Part shown: one piece after another, positions 22,731-40,236 of the stretch
How the letters are laid out: each line of letters opens with the position of its first letter
Numbering within the stretch: the first letter of the stretch is position 1
Origin: Vulgatibacter incomptus
GTDB lineage: Bacteria > Myxococcota > Myxococcia > Myxococcales > Vulgatibacteraceae
NCBI RefSeq assembly: GCF_001263175.1
Contig: NZ_CP012332.1
Coordinates: 2,291,501-2,355,500 of the forward strand
Length of the DNA stretch: 64,000 nucleotides
Direction of reading: 5' to 3'
Translations under genes and position numbers: made by a program
The notes under the pieces: generated by a model
The model's database searches: none
What the model was told of the DNA's origin: nothing
The model's input: the letters and a program-made list of their open reading frames with translations, nothing else

Positions 22731-22802
<72 letters not shown>

Positions 22803-22814
22803 GAAGGGATGGCG

Positions 22815-22844
22815 GTTCTACCTGCGCGAGGCCCCGATCGTCAA
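22815..22844 (-). promoter_or_regulatory. Promoter of tRNA-Cys
   Basis: TTGACG (22839-22844) and TAGAAC (22815-22820) are separated by 18 bases on the minus strand. The predicted start, near 22808, is only a few bases before the tRNA 5' end at 22802, as is common for tRNA genes. Confidence 0.6.
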
Positions 22845-22883
22845 GTTCGAATCGTCCGCGATCAGGCATAGCGAGTGAAGCAA

Positions 22884-22907
22884 TCGGGCCCGCAGGAGCG
22901 GGCCCGA
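22884..22907 (-). terminator. Hairpin downstream of lipoprotein A
   Basis: TCGGGCCCGC (22884-22893) and GCGGGCCCGA (22898-22907) form a perfect 10-base-pair stem with a four-base loop, 56 bases after the stop of the last array gene. The minus-strand sequence after it is only moderately T-rich (TTGCTT). It is probably a transcription end or 3' stabilising hairpin. The core differs from the GGCGGCAGGG hairpins found after the other array genes. Confidence 0.6.
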
Positions 22908-22962
22908 CTTCGCGAGAACCGGCGGCGACGCACGTGCGCCGCCGCCGGGATCGCCATTACTG

Positions 22963-25794
22963 CTAGTGGAATCCGGTCCAACGGGTTCCATCCGGCGTGA
23001 AGACGCAGGTGGAGCCGTTGTACTGGACGCTTCCGACCACCTCGAACTGCTTGGTCGCGGTGAACACCGTGGTCGCGTTGTGGGCGAGCTGGCCGCCGCA
23101 GTAGATGTTCGTCGTCACGTTCACCGGATTCCGGCTGTTGCCGAAGTTGTGGATACCGACCGCGTACGGGTGGGTCAGGCTCGGGCTGTTGATCCGGGTG
23201 TTCTCCGGGCCGGTGCCGGGGATGTCGTCCCGATCGAGGCTGGCGGTGGAGTTCACGTCGCCGTCCCAGAGCGGGGTCGGCAGGTTACCGCGCTGGCAAT
23301 TCCCGTAGTAGCACTCCGCGTTGGTCCACCAGGAGGCCTGGGTCTGCCTGTTGCCGAGGGCCTCGTTGAGCACGTGGAGGTCGATGTCACCCGCCACGTC
23401 CCAGAAGGTCTCGACCCAGAGGCCGCCCCAGGGGGTCGCCGCGAGGGAGTGCTGGCAGGCCCCACGGTTCCCGAGCGCGTCCGTGACCATCAGCTCGAAG
23501 ACGTAGTTGCCCACGAGGTCCGGGATGAAGGCCGGGGTGCAGCCCGTCACGGGGTTCGGCCGAGCGCTCGAGCCGACCGGCGCGCTCACCACCGACCAGG
23601 TGCAGGTGGTCGCATGGCCACCGGGGCTGTAAGCGCCGCCGCTGAGCACGACCTGGGTGTTCACCGTCACCGACTGGCCCGTCGCGGGGCAGATCGCGGT
23701 CGGCCACTGGCAGAGCACGCCGCAGTCCTCATCCGTGCCCGAGCCGCGGGTTTCCACGAGGAACGGCTCGTCGACACCCTGCAGCCAGACCTCGATCTTG
23801 CCCACGTCCTGAACCAGATCCAGGGGCTTGTACGACGACAGGAAGCTCTTGGAGCCCTGCGAGGGGATCGCGACCGGGAGCGTCTCGTCCGCACGAACCG
23901 TGAACCTCTGGGAGTAGCCGGAGGCCATCGACACGCGGGAGACACGGACGGCGTCCACGCCGCGGTTGCGGATCAAGAAGGGCTTGAAGACCTGCAGCGA
24001 CTGCGGAACCGCAGGAACCGGGCCGAAGACGACCGGGTTCGGATCCGCGACGAGGTCGAAAGCGGTCGCGAGGCCGCTGATCGCCACCACGGCCCGGGGC
24101 GTCTCCACGTTGGAGTGGTTGAAGAAGAGGTTGCTCCGGTCGACGACGCCGGTGATCCGGGTCGGCGCGTAGCGGATCCCGACCGTGAACTTCTCACCCG
24201 GGGCCAGAACCTTCGAGGGCGTGGTGGGGAGATCCGGCGACGAGAAGGAGCGATGACCATCGGGGTCGAGGCCCACGTTCCACACCAGACACTCCGTCGT
24301 GCCCTGGTTCTTGATGTCGATGGGGAGCGAGACGCCCTTGTTCACCGTCACCGCGCCGAAGCGGAGCGAGGCCGGGGAGATGTCCAGGTCGCAGGGCGGG
24401 AGCTCGACCACGGTCGCCATCAGGTCGACCGTCGCGTACGGCATTTCCGCGGACTGGGCGCCATTCACGTAGAGGGGGAACTCCAGCGCGGCGGGATAAT
24501 CCTGCAGTTCGCTGCCGCGGAACGTGACCTCGAAGCCCTTGGGCCCGTCCAGCGTCCAGGGCGGCTGCGTGCCGTCGGCAGCGGCCACCGTGTAGGAGTC
24601 CGCGTTGAGACCGGAGATGAAAGGCCGCTCGACCGTGAGCGCGACCTGCTCACCGACGTTCTTGAGGACGAAGCTCAGCTTCGCGGCGAAGTTCTTGGGC
24701 TGCCTGCCAAAGTCCAGCGTCTTCGGATCGGCCTCCACGTCGATGCCGCCGCTCTTCCCGTCGACCGGGACCTCGAAGTAGAGCCGATCGTCGGGCCCCA
24801 TCACCCGGACCCGGGCGAACTTCCGGGGCTGGGCCACGTCCGCGGCGTCGAAGACGACCGTGACGGGGACGCTCGCGCCCGCCTCGACCTCGAAGGTCGA
24901 CGCGACGCCGTCGAGCGAGAACTCCCCCGGAGCCTCGCCTTCGTTGGCGGGATCCCGCTCCGGATCGCCGACGAGGGCCACGGAGGTGACGGTCGCCGAG
25001 AAGTCGCCGACGTTCTGGATGGTGAAGAAGGCGCTCTTCGACTGGGTGGGAGTCACGGTCCCGAGGCTGACGGTCGGGGGCGACGGACGGAGGTCCGTCG
25101 TGCCGCCGGAGCCGATGAGCTGGACCCGAACGTCCTGGCAGCTCGGGCACGGACGGAGGAGGAGCGACGCTGCGTGGGGGCCACGGTTGGCAGGCGTGAA
25201 GGAGACGTCGAGCGCGCGGGTCGTGCCGCCGGGGAGCTCCAGCTCCACGGCCTCGTTATCGAGGCGGAACGCGGTGCGGTCGCTGCCGCCCGTGATCGAG
25301 AGCGCCAGGTTCAGATCCTTCTCGACCAGGTTCGTGAGGTCGAGCGGAAGCGTCTTCGTGTCGCCCACCTTGATGGTGCCGAAGTCGAGGACCTCGACCA
25401 CTTCCACGACGCGCTTAACGCCCTCGCCGCGGAGGTCCATGGTGAGCACGTCATTCTTGGCGTTGGAGAGCGAGAGCTCCAGCTGGCCGTCGAAGCGCTC
25501 CTCCCGCAGCGGGAAGAAGGCCACCTTCACCTCGGCCTTCGCGCCGGGCGACAGGGTGACCTCGGAGGGCCGCATGTCGTAGCCGGTGGGAAGGTTGGAG
25601 GCCCGCACCCTGACCACGGACCGGCCGAGGTTGGAGAGGGTCACGAGCTTGGAGGCTTCGGTGCCCACGAAGACCTGGGCGAAGTCGATCGAATCGGGGT
25701 CTGCCACTACGAGGCCACGAGCATTCGTGACCGGGGGCTGGGAGCATGCTCCCAACAGCGAGGCCAGGAACAGGCCGAACAACAAACGTCGCAT
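22963..25794 (-). CDS. Multi-domain lipoprotein A of the tandem HYDIN-like/YfaP-like family
   Basis: A 943-residue lipoprotein. ATG 25794 follows GGAGGA at five bases and gives lipobox LLGAC (C17); an in-frame start 15 bases upstream is less likely. Order: six HYDIN/choice-of-anchor-D-like beta-sandwiches (first FAQVFVGTEASKLVTLSNLG, later LDFGRQPKNF and LRFGAVTVNKG), a PKD-like domain (about 700-790) and a YfaP/DUF2135-like domain (GDIDLHVLNEAL, SLDRDDIPGTGPEN). It is the most divergent of the five full-length copies. It lacks the Cys pair of the sixth HYDIN domain (AFDLVADPN, RNRG) present in B-E. It is likely an outer-membrane-anchored rod with a binding or adhesive tip; function unknown. 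Confidence 0.88.
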   Translation of the reverse strand: MRRLLFGLFLASLLGACSQPPVTNARGLVVADPDSIDFAQVFVGTEASKLVTLSNLGRSVVRVRASNLPTGYDMRPSEVTLSPGAKAEVKVAFFPLREERFDGQLELSLSNAKNDVLTMDLRGEGVKRVVEVVEVLDFGTIKVGDTKTLPLDLTNLVEKDLNLALSITGGSDRTAFRLDNEAVELELPGGTTRALDVSFTPANRGPHAASLLLRPCPSCQDVRVQLIGSGGTTDLRPSPPTVSLGTVTPTQSKSAFFTIQNVGDFSATVTSVALVGDPERDPANEGEAPGEFSLDGVASTFEVEAGASVPVTVVFDAADVAQPRKFARVRVMGPDDRLYFEVPVDGKSGGIDVEADPKTLDFGRQPKNFAAKLSFVLKNVGEQVALTVERPFISGLNADSYTVAAADGTQPPWTLDGPKGFEVTFRGSELQDYPAALEFPLYVNGAQSAEMPYATVDLMATVVELPPCDLDISPASLRFGAVTVNKGVSLPIDIKNQGTTECLVWNVGLDPDGHRSFSSPDLPTTPSKVLAPGEKFTVGIRYAPTRITGVVDRSNLFFNHSNVETPRAVVAISGLATAFDLVADPNPVVFGPVPAVPQSLQVFKPFLIRNRGVDAVRVSRVSMASGYSQRFTVRADETLPVAIPSQGSKSFLSSYKPLDLVQDVGKIEVWLQGVDEPFLVETRGSGTDEDCGVLCQWPTAICPATGQSVTVNTQVVLSGGAYSPGGHATTCTWSVVSAPVGSSARPNPVTGCTPAFIPDLVGNYVFELMVTDALGNRGACQHSLAATPWGGLWVETFWDVAGDIDLHVLNEALGNRQTQASWWTNAECYYGNCQRGNLPTPLWDGDVNSTASLDRDDIPGTGPENTRINSPSLTHPYAVGIHNFGNSRNPVNVTTNIYCGGQLAHNATTVFTATKQFEVVGSVQYNGSTCVFTPDGTRWTGFH

Positions 25795-25978
25795 TACTTC
25801 CTCCACCAAAGAACGCGCGATTCAACCATGTTCCGAGGCGGCTGCAAAGGTGTTCGATCGAACAGTTGCCTCGAGCGCAAGGATCATTCAGAGGACCCGG
25901 TCCGGCCATAGGCGCAATCGGTCGAAATCCCTCGAGTCCCTTCGCAGGCGGCCCCTGCCCCACCGCCTCCCAATGGAA

Positions 25979-26008
25979 ATCGGCGGCAGGGATGCCCCTG
26001 CCGCCGAT
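25979..26008 (-). terminator. GGCGGCAGGG hairpin after gene B
   Basis: Perfect 13-base-pair inverted repeat, arms ATCGGCGGCAGGG (25979-25991) and CCCTGCCGCCGAT (25996-26008), with loop ATGC. It lies 67 bases after the stop of gene B and upstream of gene A. The minus-strand flank (TTTCCATT) is not a good T tract. It has the same core as the hairpins after C, D and E. Confidence 0.65.
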
Positions 26009-26074
26009 CCGGTTCAGCCTTCTTCTGTGCCTCTCGCCCGGGATCCGCCCCTGGCGAGCCGTTCCTGCCGCGGC

Positions 26075-28891
26075 CTAGTGGAAGCCGCTCCAGCGGGTTC
26101 CATCCGGCGTGTAGATGCACGTGGAGCCGTTGTACTGGACGCTCCCGACGATCTCGAACTGCTTGGTCGCAGTAAACACCGAGGTTGCGTTGTGGACGAG
26201 GTTGCCGCCGCAGTAGATGTTGGTCGTCCCGGTGACCGGGGTCCGGGCGTTGCTGAAGTTGTGGACGCCGACCGCGTAGGCGTGGGTCAGGCTCGGGCTG
26301 TTGATCCGGATGTTCTCCGGGCCGGTGCCCACGATGTCGTCCCGATCGAGGCTGGCGGTGGCGTTGGCGTCACCGTCCCACAGCGGGCTCGGCAGGCTTC
26401 CGCGCTGGCAGTTTCCGTAGTAGCAGTCCGCGTTGCTCCACCAGGAGCTCTGGTTCTGCCGGGGGGCGCGGTCCTCGTTCAGCACGTGGATGTCCAGATC
26501 GCCGGCGTTGTCCCAGAAGAGCTCGACCCAGATGCCGCCCCAGGGGGTCGCGGTCAGGCTGTGCTGGCAGGCGCCGCGGTTGCCGAGCTGGTCCGTGACC
26601 ATCAGCTCGAACACGTAGTTACCCACGAGATCCGGGGTGAAGGTCGGGGTGCAGCCCGTCCCGACCGGCCGGACGCTCGAGCCCACCGGCGCGCTCGCCA
26701 CCGTCCAGGAACAGGTCGTCGGGTGGCCGCCAGGGCTGTAGGCCCCGCCGTTGAGCACGATCTGGGTGTTCACCGTCACCGACTGACCCGCCGCCGGGCA
26801 GATCGCCGTCGGCCAATCGCAGAGGACGCCGCAGGCTTCGTCCGTGCCCTGGCCCTGGGTCTCCACCAAGAACGGCTCATCGACGCCCTGCATCCAGACC
26901 TCGACCTTACCCACGTCCCGGACCAGATCCAGGGGCTTGTACGACGCCAGGAAGCCCTTCGTGCCATTCGAAGCGATCGTGACCGGGAGCGCCTCGTCTG
27001 AACGGGCCGTGAAGCGCTGCGAGTAGCCGGAGGCCATCGAAACCCGGGAGATCTTGACGACGTCCGTTCCGCAGTTCCGCACCACGAAGGGCTTGTAGAC
27101 CTGCAGCGATTGCGGAACCGCAGGGACCGGGCCGAAGGCAACCGGGTTCGGATCCGCCGAGAGGCAGAAGGACGTGGCGAGACCGCTGATCGGCACCACG
27201 GCCCGAGGCGTCTCCACATCGGAGTGGTTGAAGTAGAGGTTGGCACGATCGATGACGCCGGTGATCCGGGTCGGCTGGTAGCGGATCCCCACGGAGATCT
27301 TCTCCCCCGGCGCCAGGATCTTGGAGCCGTTGGGCAGGCCCGGAGCCGCGAAGACCCGATTCTCGGACTCGACGGCGAAGTTCCACACCAGGCACTCCGT
27401 CGTGCCCTGGTTCGTGACCTCGATGGGGAGCTGGACGCCCCGGCCCACCGTCACCGCGCCAAAGCGCAGAGACGACGGGGAGATGTCCAGGTCGCAGGGC
27501 GGGAGCTCGACCACGTTCGCCATCAGGTGGACCGTGACGTACGGCTGCTCCGCCGACATCGCGCCGTTCACGTAGATCGGGAAGTCGAGCTCGGCGGGAT
27601 ACTCCTGGAGCTCGCTGCCCTTGAAGGTGACCTCGAAGGCCATCGTGTTCGCATTCTGGGAATTCAGGTGCCACGGAGCCGACGTGCCATCGACGGCCGC
27701 CACGGTGTAGTTGGCCGGCTCGCTGGGCGGATAGAGCTCGATCGCGACGCTCTCGCCGATGTTCTGAAGGATGAAGGTCTTCTTCGCGGCGAAGTTCTTC
27801 GGCTGCCTGCCGAAGTCCACCGTCCCCGGATCGGCCTCCACCTCGATGCCGCCGCTCTTCCCGTCGACCGGGACCTCGAAGTAGAGCCCATCGGGGCCCA
27901 TCACCTGGATCTTGGCGAACTTCCGGGGCTCGGCCTGGGCCTCGGCCTTGAAGGAGATCGGCACCTGGACGGTTTCGCTCGACTGCACGACGAAGGGAAC
28001 GGCGAGGGTCGCCACCGAGAATTCAGTCGGGGGCGCGTCCTGGTGGGCCGGATCGCGGTCCGGATCGGGGACGAGGAAGACGGAGGTGACGGTCGCAGGA
28101 AAGTCGCCGACGTTCTGGATGCCGAAGTAATTGGTCTTCGACTCGTTCGGAGTCACCGTCCCGAAGCTCACGACCGACGGCGAGGGACGGAGCATCGTCG
28201 CCCCGCCCGAGCCCACCAGCTGGACCCGGACGTCCTGGCAGCTGGCGCACGGACGCAGCAGGAGGGAGGCCGCGTGGGGGCCGCGGTTGGCAGGCGTGAA
28301 CGAGACGTCGATCGCGCGGGTCGCCCCGCCCGGAAGCTCGACGGCGCCGTCGTCGACCCGGAACGCCGTGCGATCGCTGCCGCCCGTGATCGAGAGCGTC
28401 AGGTTCACGCTCTTCTCGACCAGATTCGTGAGATCGAGGGGCAAGGTCTTGGTGTCGCCGAGCTTGATGGTCCCGAAGTCCAGGACCTCGACCACCTCCA
28501 CCACGCGCTTCACGCCTTCGCCCTTGAGGTCGAGGGTGATGAGCTCGTTCTTGGCGTTGGACAGCGAGATCTTCAGCTGGCCGTCGAAGGGCTCCTCTCG
28601 AAGCGGGAAGAAGGCGATCTTCACCTCGGCCCTCCCGCCGGGCGCCAGCGAGAGCTCGGACGGCCGCATGTCGTAGCCGCTAGGGAAGTCGGACGCCCTC
28701 ACCTGCACCTGGGACCGGCCCGTGTTGGAAAGGGTCACGAGCTTCGAGGCCTCGGTCCCCACGAAGACCTGGCCGAAATCGATATTGTCAGGGTCTGCCT
28801 CGATGACGCCGCGGGCGGTCCCTACTACATCCTTTGCGCACGCACCGAGCAGCAGCGGCACCATCATCAGTCCTAAAAAGAGACGTCGCAT
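26075..28891 (-). CDS. Multi-domain lipoprotein B of the tandem family
   Basis: A 938-residue paralog of A, C, D and E. ATG 28891 follows GGAGGAGG at six bases, and the signal peptide ends LLLGAC (C18). Six HYDIN-like domains occupy roughly residues 25-685, with paired cysteines at CASCQD, CDLDIS/TTEC and SFCLSADPN/RNCG. CGVLC opens the PKD-like domain (about 690-780). The YfaP-like domain (DLDIHVLNEDR, DCYYGNCQ, SLDRDDIVGTGPEN) runs to the end DGTRWSGFH. The predicted product is exported, lipidated and disulfide-stabilised. It is separated from gene C by 450 bases, so it may have its own promoter. No catalytic motif is visible. Confidence 0.9.
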   Translation of the reverse strand: MRRLFLGLMMVPLLLGACAKDVVGTARGVIEADPDNIDFGQVFVGTEASKLVTLSNTGRSQVQVRASDFPSGYDMRPSELSLAPGGRAEVKIAFFPLREEPFDGQLKISLSNAKNELITLDLKGEGVKRVVEVVEVLDFGTIKLGDTKTLPLDLTNLVEKSVNLTLSITGGSDRTAFRVDDGAVELPGGATRAIDVSFTPANRGPHAASLLLRPCASCQDVRVQLVGSGGATMLRPSPSVVSFGTVTPNESKTNYFGIQNVGDFPATVTSVFLVPDPDRDPAHQDAPPTEFSVATLAVPFVVQSSETVQVPISFKAEAQAEPRKFAKIQVMGPDGLYFEVPVDGKSGGIEVEADPGTVDFGRQPKNFAAKKTFILQNIGESVAIELYPPSEPANYTVAAVDGTSAPWHLNSQNANTMAFEVTFKGSELQEYPAELDFPIYVNGAMSAEQPYVTVHLMANVVELPPCDLDISPSSLRFGAVTVGRGVQLPIEVTNQGTTECLVWNFAVESENRVFAAPGLPNGSKILAPGEKISVGIRYQPTRITGVIDRANLYFNHSDVETPRAVVPISGLATSFCLSADPNPVAFGPVPAVPQSLQVYKPFVVRNCGTDVVKISRVSMASGYSQRFTARSDEALPVTIASNGTKGFLASYKPLDLVRDVGKVEVWMQGVDEPFLVETQGQGTDEACGVLCDWPTAICPAAGQSVTVNTQIVLNGGAYSPGGHPTTCSWTVASAPVGSSVRPVGTGCTPTFTPDLVGNYVFELMVTDQLGNRGACQHSLTATPWGGIWVELFWDNAGDLDIHVLNEDRAPRQNQSSWWSNADCYYGNCQRGSLPSPLWDGDANATASLDRDDIVGTGPENIRINSPSLTHAYAVGVHNFSNARTPVTGTTNIYCGGNLVHNATSVFTATKQFEIVGSVQYNGSTCIYTPDGTRWSGFH

Positions 28892-29341
28892 CCGCGTCCT
28901 CCTCCAAAGAGTCCACACAAGCATGTGCGACCAAGGACACGGAGATCAATGATACATATTTGAGCACCAACGGAAAGTTTCACGCATGCCGAGCTGAAGG
29001 TTCGCCGTGCGATGACCAAAAGGTTCTTCAACGATCGCCGGAGCCGTGCAACCAGTCCATTCGGCTATCGTCGGGAATTCCGGCCGAATCGCAGCCGACG
29101 TATTCGTCGCGCCGTGGCGCCCATGTGGCTCATGAAAAAGAAAATCGGCACCGAGAGTCCCCAGGTGCCGTTCGAGACCAAAATCGAATTTCATGCCGGC
29201 GGAAGGCTTCGGCGATGGCGGCACCCCGCCCTCCCCTCGCGGATGGAATCGGCGGCAGGTTGCCCCGCCGCCGATTCGGACTCCAACGCCTGCCATCCCC
29301 CGCCCGCCCCGCAACGCGAGGCGGGCGATCTCCGCGAGACC
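28892..29341. other. 450-base spacer between lipoprotein genes B and C
   Basis: This is the longest spacer of the array. It holds the gene C hairpin (29246-29277) and a lower-GC patch near 28945-28985 that could contain the gene B promoter (CAAATATGTATCAT on the minus strand). A smaller inverted repeat, ATTCGGC...GCCGAAT, lies at 29059-29089. I see no coding frame with neighbour-like codon use and no clear -35/-10 pair. Confidence 0.4.
29246..29277 (-). terminator. GGCGGC hairpin after gene C
   Basis: Arms GAATCGGCGGC (29246-29256) and GCCGCCGATTC (29267-29277) pair perfectly over 11 bases around AGGTTGCCCC, which can extend the stem by two further pairs past one mismatch. It lies 64 bases after the stop of gene C and has no T tract. 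Same core as the hairpins after B, D and E. Confidence 0.6.
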
Positions 29342-32149
29342 TCAGTGGTAGTTGTTCCAGCGGGTCCCGTCTCGCGTGAAGATACACGTCGAACCGGTGT
29401 ACTGAACGCTCCCGAGGATCTCGAACTGGGCTGTCGAGGTGAAGGTCGAGTCCGCGTTGTGGACCAGGGTGCCGTCGCAGTAGACGTTCGTCGTCACGGT
29501 CACCGGAGTCTGCCGGTTGCCCCAGTTGTGGATGCCGATGGCGTACGGGTGGGTCAGGCTCGGTCTGTTGACGCGGGTATTCTCGGGTCCGAACCCATTT
29601 CTGTCGTCCCGATCGAGGCTCCCCGTCATGTCGATGTTGCCGTCCCACAGCGGGTTCGGGCGGCTTCCGTTGTAGCAATTCCCGAAGTAGCAATCCGAAG
29701 GGTTCGTGAACCAGCTGTTCTGGTTATGCCGATCGCCGAGGGCCTCGTTCAGCACGTGGAGATCGATGTCGCCCGACCTGTCCCAGAAGGTCTCGACCCA
29801 GAGGCCGTCCCAGGCGGTCGCCGTCAGGCCGTGCTGGCATGCGCCACGGTTCCCTAGCTGGTCCGTGACCATCAGCTCGAAGACGTAGTTGCCCACGAGG
29901 TCCGGGGTGAAGGTCGGGGTGCAGCCCGCGCTCGGCCGGGCTGTAGAGCCGACCGGCGCGCTCGCCACCGTCCACGCGCACGTGGTCGGGTGACCGCCGG
30001 GGCTGGTGGCCCCGCCGTTGAGCACGATCTGGGTGTTTACGGTCACCGACTGATTCGCCTCGGGGCAGATCGCGGTCGGCCAATCGCAGAGGACGCCGCA
30101 GCCGCCCTCCGTGCCCTGGCCCTGGGTCTCGACCAGGAACGGCTCGTCTACGCCCTGCGTCCAGACCTCGATCTTCCCCACGTCCCGGACCAGATCCAGG
30201 GGCTTGTAGGACGCAAGGAAGCTCTTCGTGCCGTTCGAGGTGATCGTGACCGGGAGCGTCTCATCGGCTCGGGCCGTGAAGCGCTGCGAGTAGCCGGAGG
30301 CCATCGAAACCCGGGAGATCTTGACGGGCTCCGGCCCGCAGTTCCGCACGAGGAAGGGCTTGAAGACCTGCTGCGACTGCGGCACCGCGCCGAAGGCGAC
30401 CGGACTCGGATCCGCCGAGAGGCAGAAGGACGTGGCCAGACCGCTGATCGGCACCACGAAGCGGGGCGCCTCCGCGCTCGAGTGGTTGAAGTAGAGGTTG
30501 GACCGATCGATGACGCCGGTGATCCGGGTCGGCTGATAGCGGATCCCCACGGTGATCGTGTCACCCGGCGCCAGGACCTGGGAGCCGGTGGGCAGCCCCG
30601 GAGCCGCGAAGGCCCGATTGTCGAAATCGAGGTCGAAGTTCCACACCAGGCACTCCGTCGTGCCCTGGTTCGTGATTTCGATGGGGAGCTGGACGCCGCG
30701 GTTCACCGTCACCGCGCCAAAGCGCAGAGACGACGGGGAGATGTCCAGGTCGCAGGGCGGGAGCTCGACCACGTTCGCCATCAGGTGGACGGTGACGAAC
30801 GACTGCTCCGCCGACATCGCACCGTTCACGTAGATTGGGAAGTCGATCTCGGCGGGATATTCCTGGATCTCGCTGCCCGTGAAGGTGACCTCGAAGGCCA
30901 TGGAGCCGGCATTCTGGGAATCCAGGACCCAGGGAGGCGACGTGCCATCGACAGCAGCCACGGAGTAGTTGGCCTGCTCGCTGGGCGGATAGAGCTCGAT
31001 CGCGACGCTCTCGCCGGTGTTTCGGATCAGGAAGGTCTGCTTCGCGGCGAAGTTCTTCGGCTGCCTGCCGAAGTCCACCGTCTCCGGTTCGGCGACCACC
31101 TCGATGCCGCCGCTCTTCCCGTCGACCGGCACCTCGAAGTAGAGGCGATCGTCGGGGCCCATCACCCGGATCTTGGCGTACTTCCGCGGCTCGGCAAGGG
31201 CCGCGGCCCGGAAGGCGACCGGCACCTCGATGGTCGCGCCCACCTCCACCTCGAAGGCGTCGTGGTTCCCCGGGAGCGAGAACTCCGACAGAAGCTCGTC
31301 GCTACCGCCGCTCCGAACCGGATCGTCGACGAGGGTCATGGAGGTGACGATCGCCGGGAAGTCGCCGATGTTCTGGATGGCGAACCAGCTGCTCTTCGAT
31401 TGGCCGGGCGCGACCGTGCCCACGCTCACCGTCGGCGGCGAGGCGCGGAGCTCCGTGATACCGCCGGTGCCCACGAGCTGGACCCGGACGTCCTGGCAGC
31501 TGGCGCACGGACGCAGCAGGAGGGAGGCCGCGTGGGGGCCGCGGTTGGCGGGCGTGAACGAGACGTCGATCGCGCGGGTCGTCCCGCCCGGAAGCTCGAC
31601 GGCCCCGTCGTCGACCCGGAAGGCCGTGCGATCGCTGCCGCCCGCGATCGAGAGCGCCAGGTTCAGGCTCTTATCGATCAGGTTCGTGAGATCGAGAGGC
31701 AGGGTCTTGGTCTCGCCGAGCTTGATGACCCCGAAGTCGAGGACCTCGACCGGGTCCACCACGCGCTTCACGCCCTCGCCCTCGAGGTCGAGCGCGATGA
31801 GCTCGTTCTTCGCGTTTGACAGCGAGATCTTCAGCTGGCCGTCGAAGCGCTCCTCCCGAAGCGGGAAGAAGGCGATCTTCACCTCGGCCTTCGCGCCGGG
31901 CGCCAGGGTGAGCTCGGACGGCCGCATGTCGTAGCCGCTAGGGATGTCGGAGGCCCTCACTTGCACCAGGGAGCGGCCCATATTGGAGAGCGTGACGAGC
32001 TTCGAGGCCTCGGTCCCTACGAAGACCTGGCCGAATTGGATCAAATTGGAGTCTGCGACCACATTGCCGCGGACGTCCCCGAGGTCGGGCTTGGAACATC
32101 CACCGATCAGCAACGGAATTAGAAGCATCCAAATATGGAGACACCGCAT
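29342..32149 (-). CDS. Multi-domain lipoprotein C of the tandem family
   Basis: A 935-residue paralog. ATG 32149 follows AAGGAGG and the signal ends LLIGGC (C18). The frame is open 80 codons upstream, but only this start gives a lipobox. The domain plan is the same as in B, D and E: six HYDIN-like domains, PKD-like, then YfaP-like. Differences include a longer third domain (SGGSDELLSEFSLPGNHDAFEVEVG), loss of three residues at FGAVPQSQQVF and a YfaP segment of the type SWFTNPSDCYFGNCYNG shared with E. The end is DGTRWNNYH. Probably outer-membrane or surface exposed; function unknown. Confidence 0.9.
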   Translation of the reverse strand: MRCLHIWMLLIPLLIGGCSKPDLGDVRGNVVADSNLIQFGQVFVGTEASKLVTLSNMGRSLVQVRASDIPSGYDMRPSELTLAPGAKAEVKIAFFPLREERFDGQLKISLSNAKNELIALDLEGEGVKRVVDPVEVLDFGVIKLGETKTLPLDLTNLIDKSLNLALSIAGGSDRTAFRVDDGAVELPGGTTRAIDVSFTPANRGPHAASLLLRPCASCQDVRVQLVGTGGITELRASPPTVSVGTVAPGQSKSSWFAIQNIGDFPAIVTSMTLVDDPVRSGGSDELLSEFSLPGNHDAFEVEVGATIEVPVAFRAAALAEPRKYAKIRVMGPDDRLYFEVPVDGKSGGIEVVAEPETVDFGRQPKNFAAKQTFLIRNTGESVAIELYPPSEQANYSVAAVDGTSPPWVLDSQNAGSMAFEVTFTGSEIQEYPAEIDFPIYVNGAMSAEQSFVTVHLMANVVELPPCDLDISPSSLRFGAVTVNRGVQLPIEITNQGTTECLVWNFDLDFDNRAFAAPGLPTGSQVLAPGDTITVGIRYQPTRITGVIDRSNLYFNHSSAEAPRFVVPISGLATSFCLSADPSPVAFGAVPQSQQVFKPFLVRNCGPEPVKISRVSMASGYSQRFTARADETLPVTITSNGTKSFLASYKPLDLVRDVGKIEVWTQGVDEPFLVETQGQGTEGGCGVLCDWPTAICPEANQSVTVNTQIVLNGGATSPGGHPTTCAWTVASAPVGSTARPSAGCTPTFTPDLVGNYVFELMVTDQLGNRGACQHGLTATAWDGLWVETFWDRSGDIDLHVLNEALGDRHNQNSWFTNPSDCYFGNCYNGSRPNPLWDGNIDMTGSLDRDDRNGFGPENTRVNRPSLTHPYAIGIHNWGNRQTPVTVTTNVYCDGTLVHNADSTFTSTAQFEILGSVQYTGSTCIFTRDGTRWNNYH

Positions 32150-32349
32150 CGCCGTCCTCCTTTTCAGAATACACTCTACAAATGTACGAATGAGGCCGGT
32201 TGGATCACCAAGTGTTCCCTGGGCGCAGTGGCTCGACGGACCTCGCCGAAGCCTGCCGGCAAGAAGATCCGATCCTGATTGATTTCCCATCCTCCGATTC
32301 CGCCCTCGCAGGGGGACCGGACGGCCGTCGGCACCCCTGTTAAAAGCGA

Positions 32350-32378
32350 ATCGGCGGCAGGGAAGCCCTGCCGCCGAT
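32350..32378 (-). terminator. GGCGGCAGGG hairpin after gene D
   Basis: Perfect 13-base-pair stem, ATCGGCGGCAGGG (32350-32362) with CCCTGCCGCCGAT (32366-32378), loop AAG. The minus-strand flank reads TCGCTTTTAAC, a weak T tract, making it the most terminator-like of the four recurrent hairpins. It lies 68 bases after the stop of gene D. Confidence 0.68.
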
Positions 32379-32446
32379 CTGCTCTTCATCCTGGCATCAC
32401 GCCTGCTGCCCCGATCTTCGACGAGGCAAGCAGACGCCGCCGGGGA

Positions 32447-35260
32447 CTAGTGGAACCCGGTCCAGCGAGTACCGTCCCGCGTGAAGATGCAGGTGGACCC
32501 GTTGTACTGAGCGCTCCCGACGATCTCGAACTGCTTGGTCGCAGTGAACACCGTGGTGGCGTTGAACGCGAGCGAGCCACCGCAGTAGAGGTTCGTCGTT
32601 ACGTTGATCGGATTCCGGGAGTTGCTGAAGTTGTGGATCCCGATGGCGTATGGGTGGGTCAGGCTCGGGCTGTTGATCCGGATGTTCTCCGGGCCCGTGC
32701 CAGGGATGTCGTCGCGGTCGAGGCTCGCCGTCATGTTGATGTCGTTATCCCACAGCGGGTTCGGCCGGCTACCGAGCTGGCAGTCTCCGTAGTAGCAGTC
32801 CGCGCTGCTCCACCAGCTGGCCTGGTTCCCCCTGGCGCCGCGATCCTCGTTCACCAGGTGGAGATCGATGTCACCCGCCGCGTCCCAGAAGGTCTCCACC
32901 CAGAGGCCGCCCCAGGGGGTCGCCGTCAGGCTGTGCTGACACGCGCCACGGTTGCCGAGCTGGTCGGTAACCATCAGCTCGAACACGTAGTTGCCCACGA
33001 GATCCGGGGTGAAGGTCGGGGTGCACCCCCCTCCGACCGGCCGGGCGCTCGAGCCCACCGGCGCGCTCGCGACCGTCCACGAACAGGTGGTCGGGTGGCC
33101 GCCGGGGCTGTAGGCCCCGCCGCTGAGCACGATCTGCGTGTTCACCGTCACCGACTGACCCGCCGCCGGGCAGATCGCCGTCGGCCAATCGCAGAGGACG
33201 CCGCAAATATCGTCCGTGCCCTGGCCCTGGGTCTCGACCAGGAACGGCTCGTCGACGCCCTGCATCCAGACCTCGACCTTACCCACGTCCCGAACCAGAT
33301 CCAGGGGCTTGTACGACGCCAGGAAGCTCTTCGTGCCATTCGAGGCGATCGTGACCGGGAGGGTCTCGTCGGATCGAGCCGTGAAACGCTGCGAGTAGCC
33401 GGAGGCCATCGATACCCGGGAGATCCGGACGGCGTCCGTTCCACAGTTCCGGACGACGAAGGGCTTGAACACCTGCAGCGACTGCGGAACCGCAGGAACC
33501 GGGCCGAAGGCGACCGGGTTCGGATCCGCCGAGAGGCAGAAGGACGTCGCGAGACCGCTGATCGCCACCACGGCCCGAGGCGTCTCCACATCGGAGTGGT
33601 TGAAGTAGAGGTTGGTACGATCGATGACGCCGGTGATCCGGGTCGGCTGGTAGCGGATCCCCACGGTGATCTTGTCACCCGGCGCCAGGACCTGGGAGCC
33701 GTTGGGCAGGCCCGGAGCCGCGAAGGCCCGATTTTCGGTGTCGAGGGCGAAGTTCCACACCAGGCACTCCGTCGTGCCCTGGTTCGTGATCTCGATGGGG
33801 AGCTGGACGCCGCGGTTCACCGTCACCGCGCCAAAGCGCAGAGAGGACGGGGAGATATCCAGGTCGCAGGCCGGGAGCTCGACCACGTTCGCCATCAGGT
33901 GGACCGTGACGAACGGCTGCTCCGCCGACATCGCGCCGCCCACGTAGATCGGGAAGTCCATCTCGGCGGGATACTCCTGGATCTCGCTGCCCTTGAAGGT
34001 GACCTCGAAGGCCATCGAGTTCGCATTCTGGGAATTCAGGTGCCAGGGAGCCGACGTGCCATCGACGGCCGCCACGGTGTAGTTGGCCTGCTCGCTGGGC
34101 GGATAGAGCTCGAGCGCGACGCTCTCGCCGCTGTTTCGGATCATGAAGGTCTTCTTCGCGGCGAAGTTCTTCGGCTGCCTGCCGAAGTCCACCGTCTTCG
34201 GATCGGCCTCCACCTCGATGCCGCCGCTCTTCCCGTCGACCGGGACCTCGAAGTAGAGCCCATCGGGGCCCATCACCTGGACCTTTGCGAACTTCCGGGA
34301 ATCGGCAGCTGTGGCGTCGAAGGAGACCGCCACGTCGACGGTCGCGCTCACCCCCACCTCGAACTCGCCGGTCGCCGCGAGCGAGAACTCCCGCGGAGCC
34401 TCCCCTTCGGTGGCGGGATCCCGAACCGGGTCGCCGACGAGGGTCATGGAAGTGACGGTCGCCGGGAAGTCACCGATGTTCTGGATGGAGAAGTAGCGGG
34501 TATTCGACTCACCGGGGGTCACCGTCCCCAGGCTCAACGTCGGCGGCGAGGCGCGGAGCTCCGTGATACCGCCGGTGCCCACGAGCTGGACGCGGACGTC
34601 CTGGCAGGTCGCGCACGGACGCAGCAGGAGGGAGGCCGCGTGGGGGCCGCGGTTGGCAGGCGTGAACGAGACGTCGATCGCGCGGGTCGCCCCGCCCGGG
34701 AGCTCGACGGCCCCGTCGTCGACCCGGAAGGCAGTGCGATCGCTGCCGCCCGTGATCGAGAGCGTCAGGTTCAGGCTCTTCTCGATCAGGTTCGTGAGAT
34801 CGAGGGGGAGGGTCTTGGTATCGCCGAGCTTGATGGTCCCGAAGTCGAGGACCTCGACCACCTCCACCACGCGCTTCACACCCTCGCCCTTGAGTTCGAG
34901 GGCGATGAGCTCGTTCTTGGCGTTGGACAGCGAGATCTTCAGCTGGCCGTCGAATCGCTCCTCTCGAAGCGGGAAGAAGGCGACCTTCACCTCGGCCTTC
35001 CCGCCGGGCGCCAGGGTGAGCTCGGACGGCCGCATATCGTAGCCGCTAGGGAAGTCGGACGCCCTCACCTGAACCAGGGAGCGGCCCGTGTTGGAGAGCG
35101 TGACGAGCATCGAGGCCTCGGTCCCCACGAAGACCTGGCCGAAGTCGATTTCTGTTGCAGGGTCAGACACGATGACGCCACGGGCGCTTCCGAGCGGCTC
35201 CTTGGCACATCCCACGAGCATCAGCGGGACCAGCAGCAGTCCGTACAAGAAATGTCGCAT
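32447..35260 (-). CDS. Multi-domain lipoprotein D of the tandem family
   Basis: A 937-residue paralog, closest to E through most of its length (both begin MRH, then F or L, LYGLLLVPLMLVGCAKEPL). The start ATG 35260 follows GAGGAAA; the lipidated cysteine is C18. It has six HYDIN-like domains (about 25-685), PKD-like (about 690-780) and YfaP-like (about 790-937). In the YfaP domain it carries the type SWWSSADCYYGDCQLG, shared with A and B rather than with its nearest relative E. The end is DGTRWTGFH. Cys pairs of the HYDIN domains are intact (CATCQD, CDLDIS/TTEC, SFCLSADPN/RNCG). Confidence 0.9.
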   Translation of the reverse strand: MRHFLYGLLLVPLMLVGCAKEPLGSARGVIVSDPATEIDFGQVFVGTEASMLVTLSNTGRSLVQVRASDFPSGYDMRPSELTLAPGGKAEVKVAFFPLREERFDGQLKISLSNAKNELIALELKGEGVKRVVEVVEVLDFGTIKLGDTKTLPLDLTNLIEKSLNLTLSITGGSDRTAFRVDDGAVELPGGATRAIDVSFTPANRGPHAASLLLRPCATCQDVRVQLVGTGGITELRASPPTLSLGTVTPGESNTRYFSIQNIGDFPATVTSMTLVGDPVRDPATEGEAPREFSLAATGEFEVGVSATVDVAVSFDATAADSRKFAKVQVMGPDGLYFEVPVDGKSGGIEVEADPKTVDFGRQPKNFAAKKTFMIRNSGESVALELYPPSEQANYTVAAVDGTSAPWHLNSQNANSMAFEVTFKGSEIQEYPAEMDFPIYVGGAMSAEQPFVTVHLMANVVELPACDLDISPSSLRFGAVTVNRGVQLPIEITNQGTTECLVWNFALDTENRAFAAPGLPNGSQVLAPGDKITVGIRYQPTRITGVIDRTNLYFNHSDVETPRAVVAISGLATSFCLSADPNPVAFGPVPAVPQSLQVFKPFVVRNCGTDAVRISRVSMASGYSQRFTARSDETLPVTIASNGTKSFLASYKPLDLVRDVGKVEVWMQGVDEPFLVETQGQGTDDICGVLCDWPTAICPAAGQSVTVNTQIVLSGGAYSPGGHPTTCSWTVASAPVGSSARPVGGGCTPTFTPDLVGNYVFELMVTDQLGNRGACQHSLTATPWGGLWVETFWDAAGDIDLHLVNEDRGARGNQASWWSSADCYYGDCQLGSRPNPLWDNDINMTASLDRDDIPGTGPENIRINSPSLTHPYAIGIHNFSNSRNPINVTTNLYCGGSLAFNATTVFTATKQFEIVGSAQYNGSTCIFTRDGTRWTGFH

Positions 35261-35581
35261 CGCTTTCCTCCACGAAGGGTGAATCGCTGCAACTCATGTA
35301 GGCAGGACGGCTCCCGGATCACCGCGGAGGCGAAATCGGTAAGATTCCTACAGCTCGCGATTCGGTAGCCCGCAAGGGACTTGAGGACACCGGGCGTGCC
35401 GCGTCCACTCAATTCCCTGATTCATGCGCGATCTCGCGCACTTGGGCCGATACTCGGAGGGCTCGGCGGCAGGGAACCCTGCCGCCGAGGGGACTCCACC
35501 AGCGACGTCCAGCCTGGTGGCAGACTGACTCACAAGTGCCCGCCCCGCGTCTTCACGTGGGGCGGGCACGGTCCACGGGTC
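35261..35581. other. 321-base spacer between lipoprotein genes D and E
   Basis: This holds the hairpin after gene E (35462-35489). The 200 bases nearest gene D should contain its promoter and leader, but no consensus -35/-10 pair is evident. No gene is seen. Confidence 0.4.
35462..35489 (-). terminator. GGCGGCAGGG hairpin after gene E
   Basis: Perfect 13-base-pair stem, CTCGGCGGCAGGG (35462-35474) with CCCTGCCGCCGAG (35477-35489), separated by only two bases (AA), so the top pairs must open. It has no T tract on the minus strand and lies 92 bases after the stop of gene E. Two arm positions differ from the B and D hairpins in a compensatory way (A-T to C-G at the base of the stem). Confidence 0.62.
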
Positions 35582-38395
35582 CTAGTGGACCCAGCGCATG
35601 CCGTCCCGTGTGACGATGCAGGTGGAGCCGTTGTACTGGATGCTCACCGCCACCTCGAACTGTCGAGTCGCGGTGAACACCGTGGTCGTGTTGTACGCCA
35701 GGGCGCCACCGCAGTAGATGTTCGTCGTCACGTTGACCGGGTTTCGGGAGTTGCCCCAGTTGTGGATGCCGACCGCGTAGGGGTGGGTCAGGCTCGGGCT
35801 GTTGATCCGGGTGTTCTCCGGGCCGGTGCCGGGGATGTCGTCGCGGTCGAGGCTCGCCGTCATGTTGATGTCGTTATCCCACAGCGGATTCGGGCGGTTG
35901 CCGCTGTAGCAGTTCCCGAAGTAGCAGTCCGAAGGATTCCTGAACCAGCTGGCGTCCTGATGGCGGTCGCCGAGATCCTCGTTCAGCACGTGGAGATCGA
36001 TGTCACCCGCCGCGTCCCAGAAGGTCTCCACCCAGAGGCCGCCCCAGGGGGTCGCCGTCAGGCTGTGCTGGCAGGCGCCACGGTTGCCGAGCTGGTCCGT
36101 AACCATCAGCTCGAACACGTAGTTGCCCACGAGATCCGGGGTGAAGGTCGGGGTGCACCCCCCTCCGACCGGCCGGGCGCTCGAGCCCACCGGCGCGCTC
36201 GCCACCGTCCACGAACAGGTGGTCGGGTGGCCGCCGGGGCTGTAGGCGCCGCCGCTGAGCACGATCTGGGTGTTCACCGTCACCGACTGACCCGCCGCCG
36301 GGCAGATCGCCGTCGGCCAATCGCAGAGGACGCCGCAAGCATCGTCCGTGCCCTGGCCCTGGGTCTCGACGAGGAACGGCTCGTCGACGCCCTGCATCCA
36401 GACCTCGACCTTACCCACGTCCCGAACCAGGTCCAGGGGCTTGTACGACGCCAGGAAGCTCTTCGTGCCATTCGAAGCGATCGTGACCGGGAGGGTCTCG
36501 TCGGATCGGGCCGTGAAGCGCTGCGAGTAGCCGGAGGCCATCGAAACCCGGGAGATCCGGACGGCGTCCGTTCCACAGTTCCGGACGACGAAGGGCTTGA
36601 ACACCTGCAGCGACTGCGGAACCGCAGGAACCGGGCCGAAGGCGACCGGGTTCGGATCCGCCGAGAGGCAGAAAGACGTCGCGAGACCGCTGATCTGCAC
36701 CACGGCCCGAGGCGTCTCGACATTGGAGTGGTTGAAGTAGAGGTTGGTACGATCGATGACGCCGGTGATCCGGGTCGGCTGGTAGCGGATCCCCACGGTG
36801 ATCTTTTCACCCGGCGCCAGGACCTGGGAGCCGTTGGGCAGGCCCGGAGCCGCGAAGGCCCGATTGTCGGTGTCGAGGTCGAAGTTCCACACCAGGCACT
36901 CCGTCGTGCCCTGGTTCGTGATCTCGATGGGGAGCTGGACACCGCGGTTCACCGTCACCGCGCCAAAGCGCAGCGACGACGGGGAGATGTCCAGGTCGCA
37001 GGCCGGGAGCTCGACCACGTTCGCCATCAGGTGGACCGTGACGAACGGCTGCTCCGCCGACATCGCGCCGCTCACGTAGATCGGGAAGTCCATCTCGGCG
37101 GGATACTCCTGGATCTCGCTGCCCTTGAAGGTGACCTCGAAGGCCATCGAGTTCGCATTGTGCGAATCCAGGCGCCAGGGAGCCGACGTGCCATCGACGG
37201 CCGCCACGGTGTAGTTGGCCTCCTCGCTGGGCGGATAGAGATCGAGCGCGACGCTCTCGCCGATGTTTCGGATCATGAAGGTCTTCTTCGCGGCGAAGTT
37301 CTTCGGCTGCCTGCCGAAGTCCACCGTCCCCGGATCGGCCTCCACCTCGATGCCGCCGCTCTTCCCGTCGACCGGGACCTCGAAGTAGAGCCCATCGGGG
37401 CCCATCACCTGGATCTTGGCGAACTTCCGGGGCTCGGCCTGGGGCGCGGCCTTGAAGGAGACCTCCACCTCGACGGTCGCGCTCACCCCCACCTCGAACT
37501 CGCCGGTCGCCGCGAGCTTGAACTCCTCCGGAGCCTCCCCTTCGTTGGCGGGATCCCGAACCGGATCGACGACGAGGGTCATGGAGGTGACGGTCGCCGG
37601 GAAGTCACCGATGTTCTGGATGGCGAACCAGCTGCTCTTCGACTCGCCGGGGGTGACCGTGCCCATGGTCACCGTCGGCGGAGAGGCGCGGAGCTCCGTG
37701 ATACCGCCGGTGCCCACGAGCTGGACGCGGACGTCCTGGCAGCTGGCGCAAGGACGCAGCAGGAGGGAGGCCGCGTGGGGTCCGCGGTTGGCCGGCGTGA
37801 ACGAGACGTCGATCGCGCGGGTCGCCCCCCCCGGAAGCTCGACGGCCCCGTCGTCGACCCGGAAGGCCGTGCGATCGCTGCCGCCCGTGATCGAGAGGTC
37901 CAGGTTCAGGCTCTTCTCGATCAGGTTCGTGAGGTCGAGGGGGAGGGTCTTGGTGTCGCCGAGCTTGATGGTCCCGAAGTCCAGGACCTCGACCACCTCC
38001 ACCACGCGCTTCACGCCCTCGCCCTTGAGGTCGAGGGTGACGAGCTCGTTCTTGGCGTTGGACAGCGAGATCTTCAGCTGGCCGTCGAAGCGCTCCTCGC
38101 GAAGCGGGAAGAAGGCGATCTTCACCTCGGCCTTCCCGCCGGGCGCCAGCGAGAGCTCGGACGGCCGCATGTCGTAGCCGCTAGGGAAGTCGGACGCCCT
38201 CACCTGCACCTGGGACCGGCCCGTGTTGGAGAGGGTCACGAGCTTCGAGGCCTCGGTCCCCACGAAGACCTGGCCGAAGTCGACTTCCGTTTTAGGGTCA
38301 GACACGACGACGCCGCGGGCGCTCCCTAGCGGCTCCTTGGCACATCCCACGAGCATCAGCGGGACCAGCAGCAGCCCGTACAACAAATGTCGCAT
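35582..38395 (-). CDS. Multi-domain lipoprotein E of the tandem family
   Basis: A 937-residue paralog, first in transcription order of the full-length copies. ATG 38395 follows GAGGAGGA; lipobox MLVGC (C18). Rough domain limits are HYDIN-like repeats 30-135, 138-240, 243-348, 350-465, 468-572 and 573-685, PKD-like 687-780 and YfaP-like 790-937. It resembles D closely except in the YfaP domain, where DRHQDASWFRNPSDCYFGNC and HNWGN match C. The end is shortened to DGMRWVH. HYDIN-like repeats act as binding scaffolds elsewhere. The YfaP-like tip suggests ligand binding, but no function can be assigned. Confidence 0.9.
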   Translation of the reverse strand: MRHLLYGLLLVPLMLVGCAKEPLGSARGVVVSDPKTEVDFGQVFVGTEASKLVTLSNTGRSQVQVRASDFPSGYDMRPSELSLAPGGKAEVKIAFFPLREERFDGQLKISLSNAKNELVTLDLKGEGVKRVVEVVEVLDFGTIKLGDTKTLPLDLTNLIEKSLNLDLSITGGSDRTAFRVDDGAVELPGGATRAIDVSFTPANRGPHAASLLLRPCASCQDVRVQLVGTGGITELRASPPTVTMGTVTPGESKSSWFAIQNIGDFPATVTSMTLVVDPVRDPANEGEAPEEFKLAATGEFEVGVSATVEVEVSFKAAPQAEPRKFAKIQVMGPDGLYFEVPVDGKSGGIEVEADPGTVDFGRQPKNFAAKKTFMIRNIGESVALDLYPPSEEANYTVAAVDGTSAPWRLDSHNANSMAFEVTFKGSEIQEYPAEMDFPIYVSGAMSAEQPFVTVHLMANVVELPACDLDISPSSLRFGAVTVNRGVQLPIEITNQGTTECLVWNFDLDTDNRAFAAPGLPNGSQVLAPGEKITVGIRYQPTRITGVIDRTNLYFNHSNVETPRAVVQISGLATSFCLSADPNPVAFGPVPAVPQSLQVFKPFVVRNCGTDAVRISRVSMASGYSQRFTARSDETLPVTIASNGTKSFLASYKPLDLVRDVGKVEVWMQGVDEPFLVETQGQGTDDACGVLCDWPTAICPAAGQSVTVNTQIVLSGGAYSPGGHPTTCSWTVASAPVGSSARPVGGGCTPTFTPDLVGNYVFELMVTDQLGNRGACQHSLTATPWGGLWVETFWDAAGDIDLHVLNEDLGDRHQDASWFRNPSDCYFGNCYSGNRPNPLWDNDINMTASLDRDDIPGTGPENTRINSPSLTHPYAVGIHNWGNSRNPVNVTTNIYCGGALAYNTTTVFTATRQFEVAVSIQYNGSTCIVTRDGMRWVH

Positions 38396-38575
38396 CGCAT
38401 TCCTCCTCGAGGTTGAAACGAGCGACTAATGTCGGGGTACGGCCTGTCGGATCACCTGGATCTCCGTTTTCCGGAAAAATTCTTCATCCGGAGCCCGTTA
38501 CGGCCGAAATCCAGCTCCAGCGGCCCTGGCCCCCGTTTCGAGCCCGTCTGCGGCGCGCCGATGGAGGCCTCCAAA

Positions 38576-38611
38576 TGAAAAGCCGGAGACGAATGGGCTT
38601 CCGTCCCCGGC
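38576..38611 (-). terminator. Terminator downstream of the mini-paralog F
   Basis: Arms GCCGGAGACG (38582-38591) and CGTCCCCGGC (38602-38611) form a 10-base-pair stem with one wobble and a 10-base loop. The minus strand continues CTTTTCATTT. It lies 60 bases after the stop of F. The sequence is unrelated to the GGCGGCAGGG hairpins. Confidence 0.7.
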
Positions 38612-38670
38612 GATCGGCCCCGTTCATCTGCAGGGCTTCTGGTCTGTTGAGCCAACCGCCCGGTCGAGCT

Positions 38671-39558
38671 CTATTCGCAGGGGTCCTCGCAATCGAGGCT
38701 CTCCCCCCATCCTCGGAGCTCGACCCGGTAAGGCTCGTCGGCGCCTTCCATCCAGACCTCGAGCCACGCCGTCTCCAGGTACATGCCCCGCGGCCTGTAA
38801 GAGGCCAAGAAGCTCTTGGATCCCCCGGGAAAAATGAACAGGGGAAGGGCCTCCTCGGCCCTCGCGGAAAAGGCCGGAGGAAGGTCGGACACGATGGAGA
38901 GACGGACGATCCGAACTACGTCGTCGCCCAAATTGAACATGGTGAACGCCTTGAAGGCCTGGAGCGTCTGCGGCCAGGCCGGAACCGGGCCGAAGTCGAG
39001 CGGGTCCCGATCCGCGACGAGGCGCAGGGAAGTTGCGAAGGTCGACGCCCTCAGGTCGACCTGCACGAAGGGCTGCTCTTCCGAGAGCTGGCCGTTCACG
39101 AAGACCGGGAGAACCAACGACGCGGCGTAGTCCTTGACTTCGCTCCCACGGAACGTGACCTCGAGTGCCAGGGGCCGCTCGTCGATGATCCAGGGCCCCT
39201 CGGCGCCGTCGAGGTCCGTCACGGTGAAGGAAGTGGCATCCGGAGACGCAATCACCGGCTGGTCGACAGTGATCCGTGCCGGATCCCCGACGTTCTGGAG
39301 AATGAGGGTCCTTCTCGCCAGGAAGCCCTTCGGCAATCGTCCGAAGTCCACCTCGCCCGGAGGACACCCGACGACCTCGATCCGGACTCTCTCTTCGCCT
39401 CCCCCGGAACCGCCGTCGGCACCGATGCCACCTGTCCGACCATCTACTCCGGAGTCTCCCGGACCGGCGGAGCCTCCAGGTTCGGCTTCGGGGCCACCAC
39501 TTCCGCTTCCGCACGACGCGAGAAAGAGAGCGAGAACCAGCACCACGACAGGGCGCAT
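38671..39558 (-). CDS. Mini-paralog F of the tandem lipoprotein family
   Basis: A 295-residue lipoprotein. ATG 39558, five bases after GAGG, gives the signal LFLASC (C16). A GTG two codons upstream is the alternative. After an acidic Gly-rich tether (about 18-55) come two HYDIN-like domains matching the fourth (VDFGRLPKGFLARRTLILQNVG) and sixth (PLDFGPVPAWPQTLQAF) domains of A-E. The fifth HYDIN domain, the first three, and the PKD- and YfaP-like regions are absent. It ends at the equivalent of the CGVLC junction with SLDCEDPCE. It may be an ancestral core or a deletion derivative. It sits between the ribosomal operon and the array with its own terminator. Confidence 0.85.
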   Translation of the reverse strand: MRPVVVLVLALFLASCGSGSGGPEAEPGGSAGPGDSGVDGRTGGIGADGGSGGGEERVRIEVVGCPPGEVDFGRLPKGFLARRTLILQNVGDPARITVDQPVIASPDATSFTVTDLDGAEGPWIIDERPLALEVTFRGSEVKDYAASLVLPVFVNGQLSEEQPFVQVDLRASTFATSLRLVADRDPLDFGPVPAWPQTLQAFKAFTMFNLGDDVVRIVRLSIVSDLPPAFSARAEEALPLFIFPGGSKSFLASYRPRGMYLETAWLEVWMEGADEPYRVELRGWGESLDCEDPCE

Positions 39559-39637
39559 AATCACCTCACGGAACGGGTCCAGCCGTCACATGTCCTCTCG
39601 CCGGGAAACGGATCACCCGACCGGGGGACCCTGCCGC

Positions 39638-39678
39638 CGAAAACGAAAACGGCGGCAAGCCCGAGGGCCCGCCGCCGT
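39638..39678 (-). terminator. Terminator of the ribosomal super-operon (after rplQ)
   Basis: On the minus strand ACGGCGGC (39671-39678) pairs with GCCGCCGT (39649-39656). TTTTCGTTTTC follows, a good T-rich tail. The same GCCGCCGT arm can instead pair with the next CGGCGGCA (39632-39639) in a second hairpin with a T-rich loop, giving two mutually exclusive structures. It starts about 50 bases after the rplQ stop. Confidence 0.8.
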
Positions 39679-39728
39679 CCTTGACTCATCGGTCCGGCGT
39701 CATCCGCCGGACCACGAGCTCGCTGGCG

Positions 39729-40121
39729 CTATTCGGCTTCCGCCGGCGCCGCCGCAGCCGTCTCCGGCCGATCGACCAGCTCGAGGTACGCCATCTCCGC
39801 GGAGTCGCCCAGCCGGCGACCGATGCGGACGATCCGCGTGTACCCGCCCGGGCGAGCGCCGTAGCGCTCCGCGAGGGTGCTGAAGAGCTTCGAGAGCACG
39901 TCCTTGTCGTGCACCGTCTTGCTCGCGAGCCGCCTGGCGTGGAGCGAGCCCTTCTTCCCGAGGGTGATCACCCGGTCGGCAAGCTTGCGGGCTTCCTTCG
40001 CCTTGGGCACCGTGGTGCGGATCCTCTCGTGCCGCAGGAGCGAGATGACCATGTTGTCCATCATCGCTTCCCGATGAGCCGAGGTCCGCGAGAACTTGCG
40101 GCCGGCAACTCCGTGACGCAT
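39729..40121 (-). CDS. rplQ: 50S ribosomal protein L17
   Basis: Binds 23S rRNA near the exit tunnel of the large subunit. The 130-residue protein has the L17 start [20 protein letters not shown], with [15 protein letters not shown] in the centre. The C-terminal tail is rich in Ala, Pro and Glu ([11 protein letters not shown]), slightly longer than in E. coli. ATG 40121 is the start; the frame is open further upstream but has no homology there. It is the last gene of the alpha segment, after rpoA, and is followed by a terminator. Confidence 0.97.
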
Positions 40122-40236
40122 CGTCTTTCTCCATCGCCCCGCCGCTCTTGGCCGCCGGAGCTTCAATTCAACTGCGACTAGGGGCCGCGCCGGAGGTGAC
40201 CTCCTCGCGGGCTCGCAGGCCCCTTGTCGAAAGAGT

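Follow-up and report, generated by a model that had tools for sequence, protein, structure and literature searches.

The tandem array and its products

Five genes, here called copies A to E, lie in tandem on the minus strand of the window (the whole stretch of 64,000 nucleotides of Vulgatibacter incomptus DNA that was analysed), at the positions given for them by an earlier note on this DNA, and a short paralog lies beside copy E.

22963..25794, minus strand: copy A, 943-residue lipoprotein-like protein, probable start ATG with GGAGGA upstream
26075..28891, minus strand: copy B, 938 residues, probable internal start
29342..32149, minus strand: copy C, 935 residues from a probable internal start (the long open reading frame starts at 32389)
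32447..35260, minus strand: copy D, 937 residues
35582..38395, minus strand: copy E, 937 residues
38671..39564, minus strand: short paralog of 297 residues without the tip, matching core residues 316-459 and 568-692 of E

The short paralog is in frame and has a lipobox-like start and core domains, without PKD or tip. The A-E array is flanked by rpoA/rplQ (39729-41262) and a tRNA gene (22731-22802), the sole match of an Rfam scan of positions 22500-40000. The genome consists of a single contig (4,350,553 bases), and a second cluster on the same chromosome contains the paralogs F and G and a shortened copy, H. Copy H (L016:13033-15379) lacks most of the core and the N terminus, and adjoins a transposase gene with an rve integrase core.

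The A-E proteins share one layout. After a lipobox-like N terminus come several Ig domains of the choice-of-anchor D / HYDIN-like kind and a weak PKD-like stretch, and the C-terminal domain, here called the tip, is about 150 residues long. All five copies have complete frames, GGAGG-like sites and lipobox-like N termini (motifs read by eye: LLGAC, LLGAC, LIGGC, LVGC and LVGC). PF22544 was matched in 5/5 copies with 101-131 bits (cut-off 25.5), and NF012200 in A, C, D and E, the four full-length copies scanned, with 126-144 bits (cut-off 45). Protein identity is 72-91% within the array and at most 58% to the second cluster; for D and E it is 91.4%, with 93.5% identity of their DNA.

The spacers between the copies are largely unrelated (mean column identity 51%). 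A perfect hairpin (CGGCGGCAGGG, 2-4 bases, CCCTGCCGCCG) has three copies genome-wide, at 25980-26007, 32351-32377 and 35463-35488; B, D and E each have one about 70-95 bases 3' of the stop codon, and an imperfect copy lies near 29248-29275, 3' of C. The hairpins 3' of B-E probably represent one terminator-like element common to these genes and lacking a T run. A scan for sigma-70-like promoters gave no sites, such a scan being of little value in a GC-rich genome.

One genome of the genus was examined, and there was no second one among 40 relatives. Scanning genome contigs with the whole protein found no relative, and a search with the tip alignment found two loci, both from one MAG. A search of the literature on choice-of-anchor D proteins in Myxococc- returned nothing.

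The tip as a putative TerD-like domain

The tip family occurs in Myxococcota, and a PKD-plus-tip profile at 1e-10 had matches in 40 of the 117 genomes of the order, some of them through the PKD half only. The earlier note had called the tip of C, D and E YfaP-like, a label that is reasonable, since 7 of 34 tip-family members match DUF2135 (PF09906) weakly (best E 0.0015), and tentative for A-E; the tips of E and B themselves gave no match to DUF2135 at E up to 10. In a model of the tip the mean pLDDT was 79, with lower confidence in the loop. When this model was compared by VIA-align, five TerD-family structures ranked 1-5 (Z 8.5-10.6, 133-137 residues aligned) and the next chain had a Z of 6.0. 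With the PKD-plus-tip model the VIA-align alignment covered the PKD half only, and Foldseek returned Ig/PKD-type matches. Foldseek gave no match under E 0.1 for the tip model, and the tip-family profile (A6) had no match among PDB sequences. TerD itself (PF02342) had no match in this genome, in 40 genomes or in 195 genomes drawn from the phylum. Given the best structural ranks and the weak DUF2135 matches, the tip may be a DUF2135/TerD-like domain, with a TerD-like beta-sandwich in the model. Klebsiella TerD (2kxt) is calcium-binding according to the title of its structure entry, and a putative metal site of the tip would lie at its conserved acidic residues.

Two loop classes in a mosaic tip

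Each tip carries a loop around a DC motif, and the loop sequences quoted by the earlier note are correct. C and E read GDRH...SWF.NPSDCYFGNCY, and A, B and D have SWW, one codon fewer, and then (D/E)CYYG(N/D)CQ.

35891..35986, minus strand: loop of E (LNEDLGDRH...SGNRP), C/E class, five residues between SW and DC
32762..32854, minus strand: loop of D (VNEDRGARG...LGSRP), A/B/D class, one codon shorter
29657..29752, minus strand: loop of C, C/E class
26390..26482, minus strand: loop of B, A/B/D class
23278..23370, minus strand: loop of A, A/B/D class

By a hand count in alignment A6, a tryptophan-containing insert is present in 13 family members outside the array; 10 of these show the five-residue distance from W to DC found in C/E, and 10 of the 13 have a proline two places before the D. 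Since this spacing and this proline are common among relatives, and A, B and D carry a one-codon deletion relative to C/E, the C/E loop is an old class that has kept the older layout. The cysteine of the DC motif is present in 34/34 and the aspartate in at least 90% of the aligned tip family (n=34), whose members were chosen by a pattern related to this motif.

As had been noticed before, the copies fall into two groups near the loop, E with C and D with A and B. Among the 204 biallelic informative sites 17 split C+E from the other copies, and 10 of these 17 fall within 30 codons from codon 818 (0/1000 permutations; codon numbers are those of the five-copy alignment). Codons 811-850 hold ten CE splits and one DE split, and codons 851-868 none and five. 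D and E had been described as near-twins over most of their length, which is accurate up to codon 811 and, beyond 812, for a 16-codon patch alone; the D-E MaxChi breakpoint lies at codon 812, with 109 of 677 polymorphic sites differing before it and 72 of 156 after it (0/2000 permutations). Painting of E against the other copies gave the following segments.

35885..35995, minus strand: C-like, codons 812-848, posterior 0.93, its upper edge being the D-E MaxChi breakpoint
35837..35884, minus strand: D-like, codons 849-864
35771..35836, minus strand: A-like, codons 865-886

The proposed return of E to D-type sequence past the loop is thus seen at about codons 848-864 and then gives way to the A-like segment, and the HNWGN of E, C-like as described, belongs to a separate short C-like patch at codons 887-893. 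D was painted B-like at codons 828-848. The painted segments of E are shorter and more numerous in the tip than in the core, and informative sites are denser in the tip.

A single tree for all segments, the outcome named in advance as contrary to the patchwork, was not found. The segment trees join D+E at codons 601-810 (95%, with outgroups) and again at codons 849-866 (92%), and the loop tree with outgroups separates {A,B,D} from {C,E,F,G} (98%), with C+E at 69%. In AU tests all 12 topologies without C+E were rejected for the loop (p <=0.031) and all three C+E topologies for codons 601-811 (p <=0.042); for codons 849-866 two of the three C+E topologies were rejected and the third had p = 0.058. 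None of 15 topologies was rejected for codons 331-600, and for codons 867-950 two were, neither of them a C+E one. Because the C+E splits cluster and the segments conflict, the patchwork in the tip is real.

Exchange between copies along the genes

The mosaic had been ascribed to gene conversion focused on the loop. Recombination between the copies is well founded: PHI-type clustering with windows of 5, 10 and 20 sites was reached in 0/500, 0/500 and 1/500 permutations (like the tract test, run on five sequences with our own implementation), and each of the ten pairs has MaxChi breakpoints (0-15 of 2000 permutations). The longest identical stretch is 169 nt between B and E and 46-128 nt in the other pairs. 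A focus on the loop is not supported, as significant tracts are spread along the whole genes. The pairs A-D, A-E, B-C, B-E and C-D have significant shared runs along the genes, among them the following.

B-E: codons 57-87 and 320-378
C-D: codons 228-243 and 389-402
B-C: codons 206-225 and 383-400
A-E: codons 282-292 and 865-883

Moreover, incompatibility between neighbouring informative sites in the tip (22/59) is not above that of codons 46-811 (Fisher p = 0.42). Gene conversion between the copies is therefore very likely on these sequence comparisons, and neither an exchange targeted to the loop nor the shuffling of specificity proposed with it is supported.

The same data bear on a reading without recombination, in which point mutation, convergence and uneven rates would have produced the patchwork. 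Homoplasy is certainly common, as the Rm of 103 on 204 sites must hold many parallel changes; Rm is inflated by it and is hence not taken as an event count. The evidence from runs of silent codons is also thin, since only two silent-only runs are significant (A-B 851-885 and A-C 251-293). However, the PHI clustering, the breakpoints in ten pairs, the long exact stretches and the AU conflict all speak against this reading, which we hold to be extremely improbable.

Age and direction of a presumed loop exchange

The idea that E took up a C-type cassette, through conversion aimed at the presumed binding loop, agrees with its C-like painting between D-like flanks and with the C+E loop tree. A recent cassette from C is, however, contradicted by the silent differences between C and E, found at 6 of 25 loop codons, about the level of the tip elsewhere (20/65) and no lower than that of the core (79/630). 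The pS of this pair is 0.36 over codons 814-846 and 0.44 over 820-841, exceeding the core value of 0.168, and a transfer from C to E would therefore not be recent. With the C/E class itself old, E need not have received anything recently.

Direction is equally open to another reading, as a transfer into D from a B-like donor would account for the pattern as well: B and D differ silently at 4 of 20 loop codons, and D is painted B-like there. Parsimony on the core tree gives three events for either recipient (hand count), and a direction test at silent sites gave 3/20 vs 7/20 (Fisher p = 0.27). At the ten C+E sites the outgroup majority has the C/E state at six, the A/B/D state at three and neither at one, so that each loop class has derived states of its own too. 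Considering also the tracts beyond the loop, a targeted C-to-E cassette seems very unlikely.

Silent divergence along the genes

Among copies B-E the silent difference per site changes along the gene as follows.

Codons 1-45: 0.387
Codons 46-240: 0.139
Codons 241-330: 0.248
Codons 331-600: 0.099
Codons 601-811: 0.211
Codons 812-950 (tip): 0.355

Most of the middle thus shows about 10-14%, as against 36% for the tip, and the silent difference between D and E rises from 0.082 (codons 46-811) to 0.295 (codons 812-950). Silent divergence among B-E is higher toward the gene ends, with a Spearman coefficient of -0.59 against distance to the nearer end (p 1e-4, an optimistic value because windows along a gene are autocorrelated) and of -0.82 in codons 331-950 alone. 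The same windows compared with the unconverted paralogs F and G gave -0.17, not significant. A circular shift, used as a check on the tip excess over the core, placed the six B-E pairs at rank fractions of 0.009-0.097, with five below 0.05; pairs with A had no tip excess of this size (0.14-1.0). The tip is not intrinsically fast, since the F-G silent/non-silent values are no higher there (0.380/0.256) than in the core (0.431/0.257). Copies B-E are less homogenised in the tip than in the middle. Codons 241-330 (about 37.4-37.7 kb in E) form a diverged internal island, with a pN/pS of 0.93, above that of the loop.

Possible selection on the loop

Two loop classes that are an indel apart and cross the gene tree could reflect selection. 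Homogenisation would then be general, and selection would remove conversions in the tip, so that the two old classes are kept as different specificities, a form of balancing selection in a multigene family. Besides the codon deletion and the crossing of the core tree, the loop pN/pS among B-E is 0.77, as compared with 0.24-0.57 over codons 331-811, only 5% of 33-codon windows reach the loop pN, and D and E differ silently at 4/15 loop codons vs 44/692 in the core (p = 0.015). However, silent divergence is high over the whole tip and at the 5' end, well beyond the loop, and the DC motif in the loop is conserved across the family. Moreover, the loop is not fast against the unconverted paralogs: its non-silent change vs F/G is at the median (47% of 33-codon windows are as high), and in the F-G comparison alone 85% of windows are as high. 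The highest pN window among B-E begins at codon 283. On these comparisons the evidence leans against diversifying selection on the loop, and maintenance of the classes by balancing selection appears unlikely. That they are balanced alternatives kept across paralogs for recognition, as a trans-paralog polymorphism with conversion holding the remainder of the proteins alike, is likewise rather improbable.

Probable concerted evolution with weak coverage at the gene ends

We read the observed mosaic structure, the tracts along the genes, the graded silent divergence and the relationships of the loop classes as ordinary concerted evolution in which conversion copies short tracts and covers the ends of homology poorly, and give this reading a probability of about two in three. 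The five genes would be old tandem paralogs between which short pieces, of tens to a few hundred bases, pass by RecA-type homologous recombination or gene conversion, the molecular step being the one we presume. Conversion would often reach the middle of the genes and seldom their two ends, at which homology gives way to unrelated spacers. Because copying would be sparse there, old differences would persist in the 3' part of the genes, where the C-terminal domain is encoded. The C/E and A/B/D loop classes would be such survivors, and D and E, homogenised upstream, would carry different ones. The loop itself would not steer conversion, and the gradient would be caused by the end effect. The island at codons 241-330 counts against the end effect, which leaves internal divergence unexplained.

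Prokaryotic cases of concerted evolution by gene conversion have been described (PMC6053082). The array resembles concerted tandem paralogs in that its copies are far closer to each other than to other relatives, with mosaic segment trees and a homogenised core; unlike them, it is incompletely homogenised toward the gene ends and is known from one genome of the genus. In the segmental gene-conversion antigen systems vlsE and MSP2 (PMC4534519), mosaic segments also occur among related surface-protein genes. The array differs from them in consisting of five complete frames with their own ribosome-binding-like sites, with no silent cassettes or single expression site seen, and in that transfer is not restricted to a variable region, given the significant core tracts. 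Unlike for vlsE and MSP2, no host immunity is known in the case of the array.

Among myxobacterial proteins, SitA are reportedly lipoprotein toxins. TraA is a self-recognition receptor of myxobacteria (PMC6372800). By description, the array is like TraA and SitA a polymorphic cell-surface or putative lipoprotein family of myxobacteria; unlike them, it has one domain architecture, no adjacent immunity-like frame was noted, and a sequence link to them was not seen. If the reading by selection were true, the array would be a recognition-type family in this bacterium. To our knowledge, no such family has been reported from it. As it stands, the array is a clear case study of paralog mosaicism in Myxococcota. 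It is also a warning, as a loop that is seemingly swapped between near-twins may be the part that conversion failed to overwrite.
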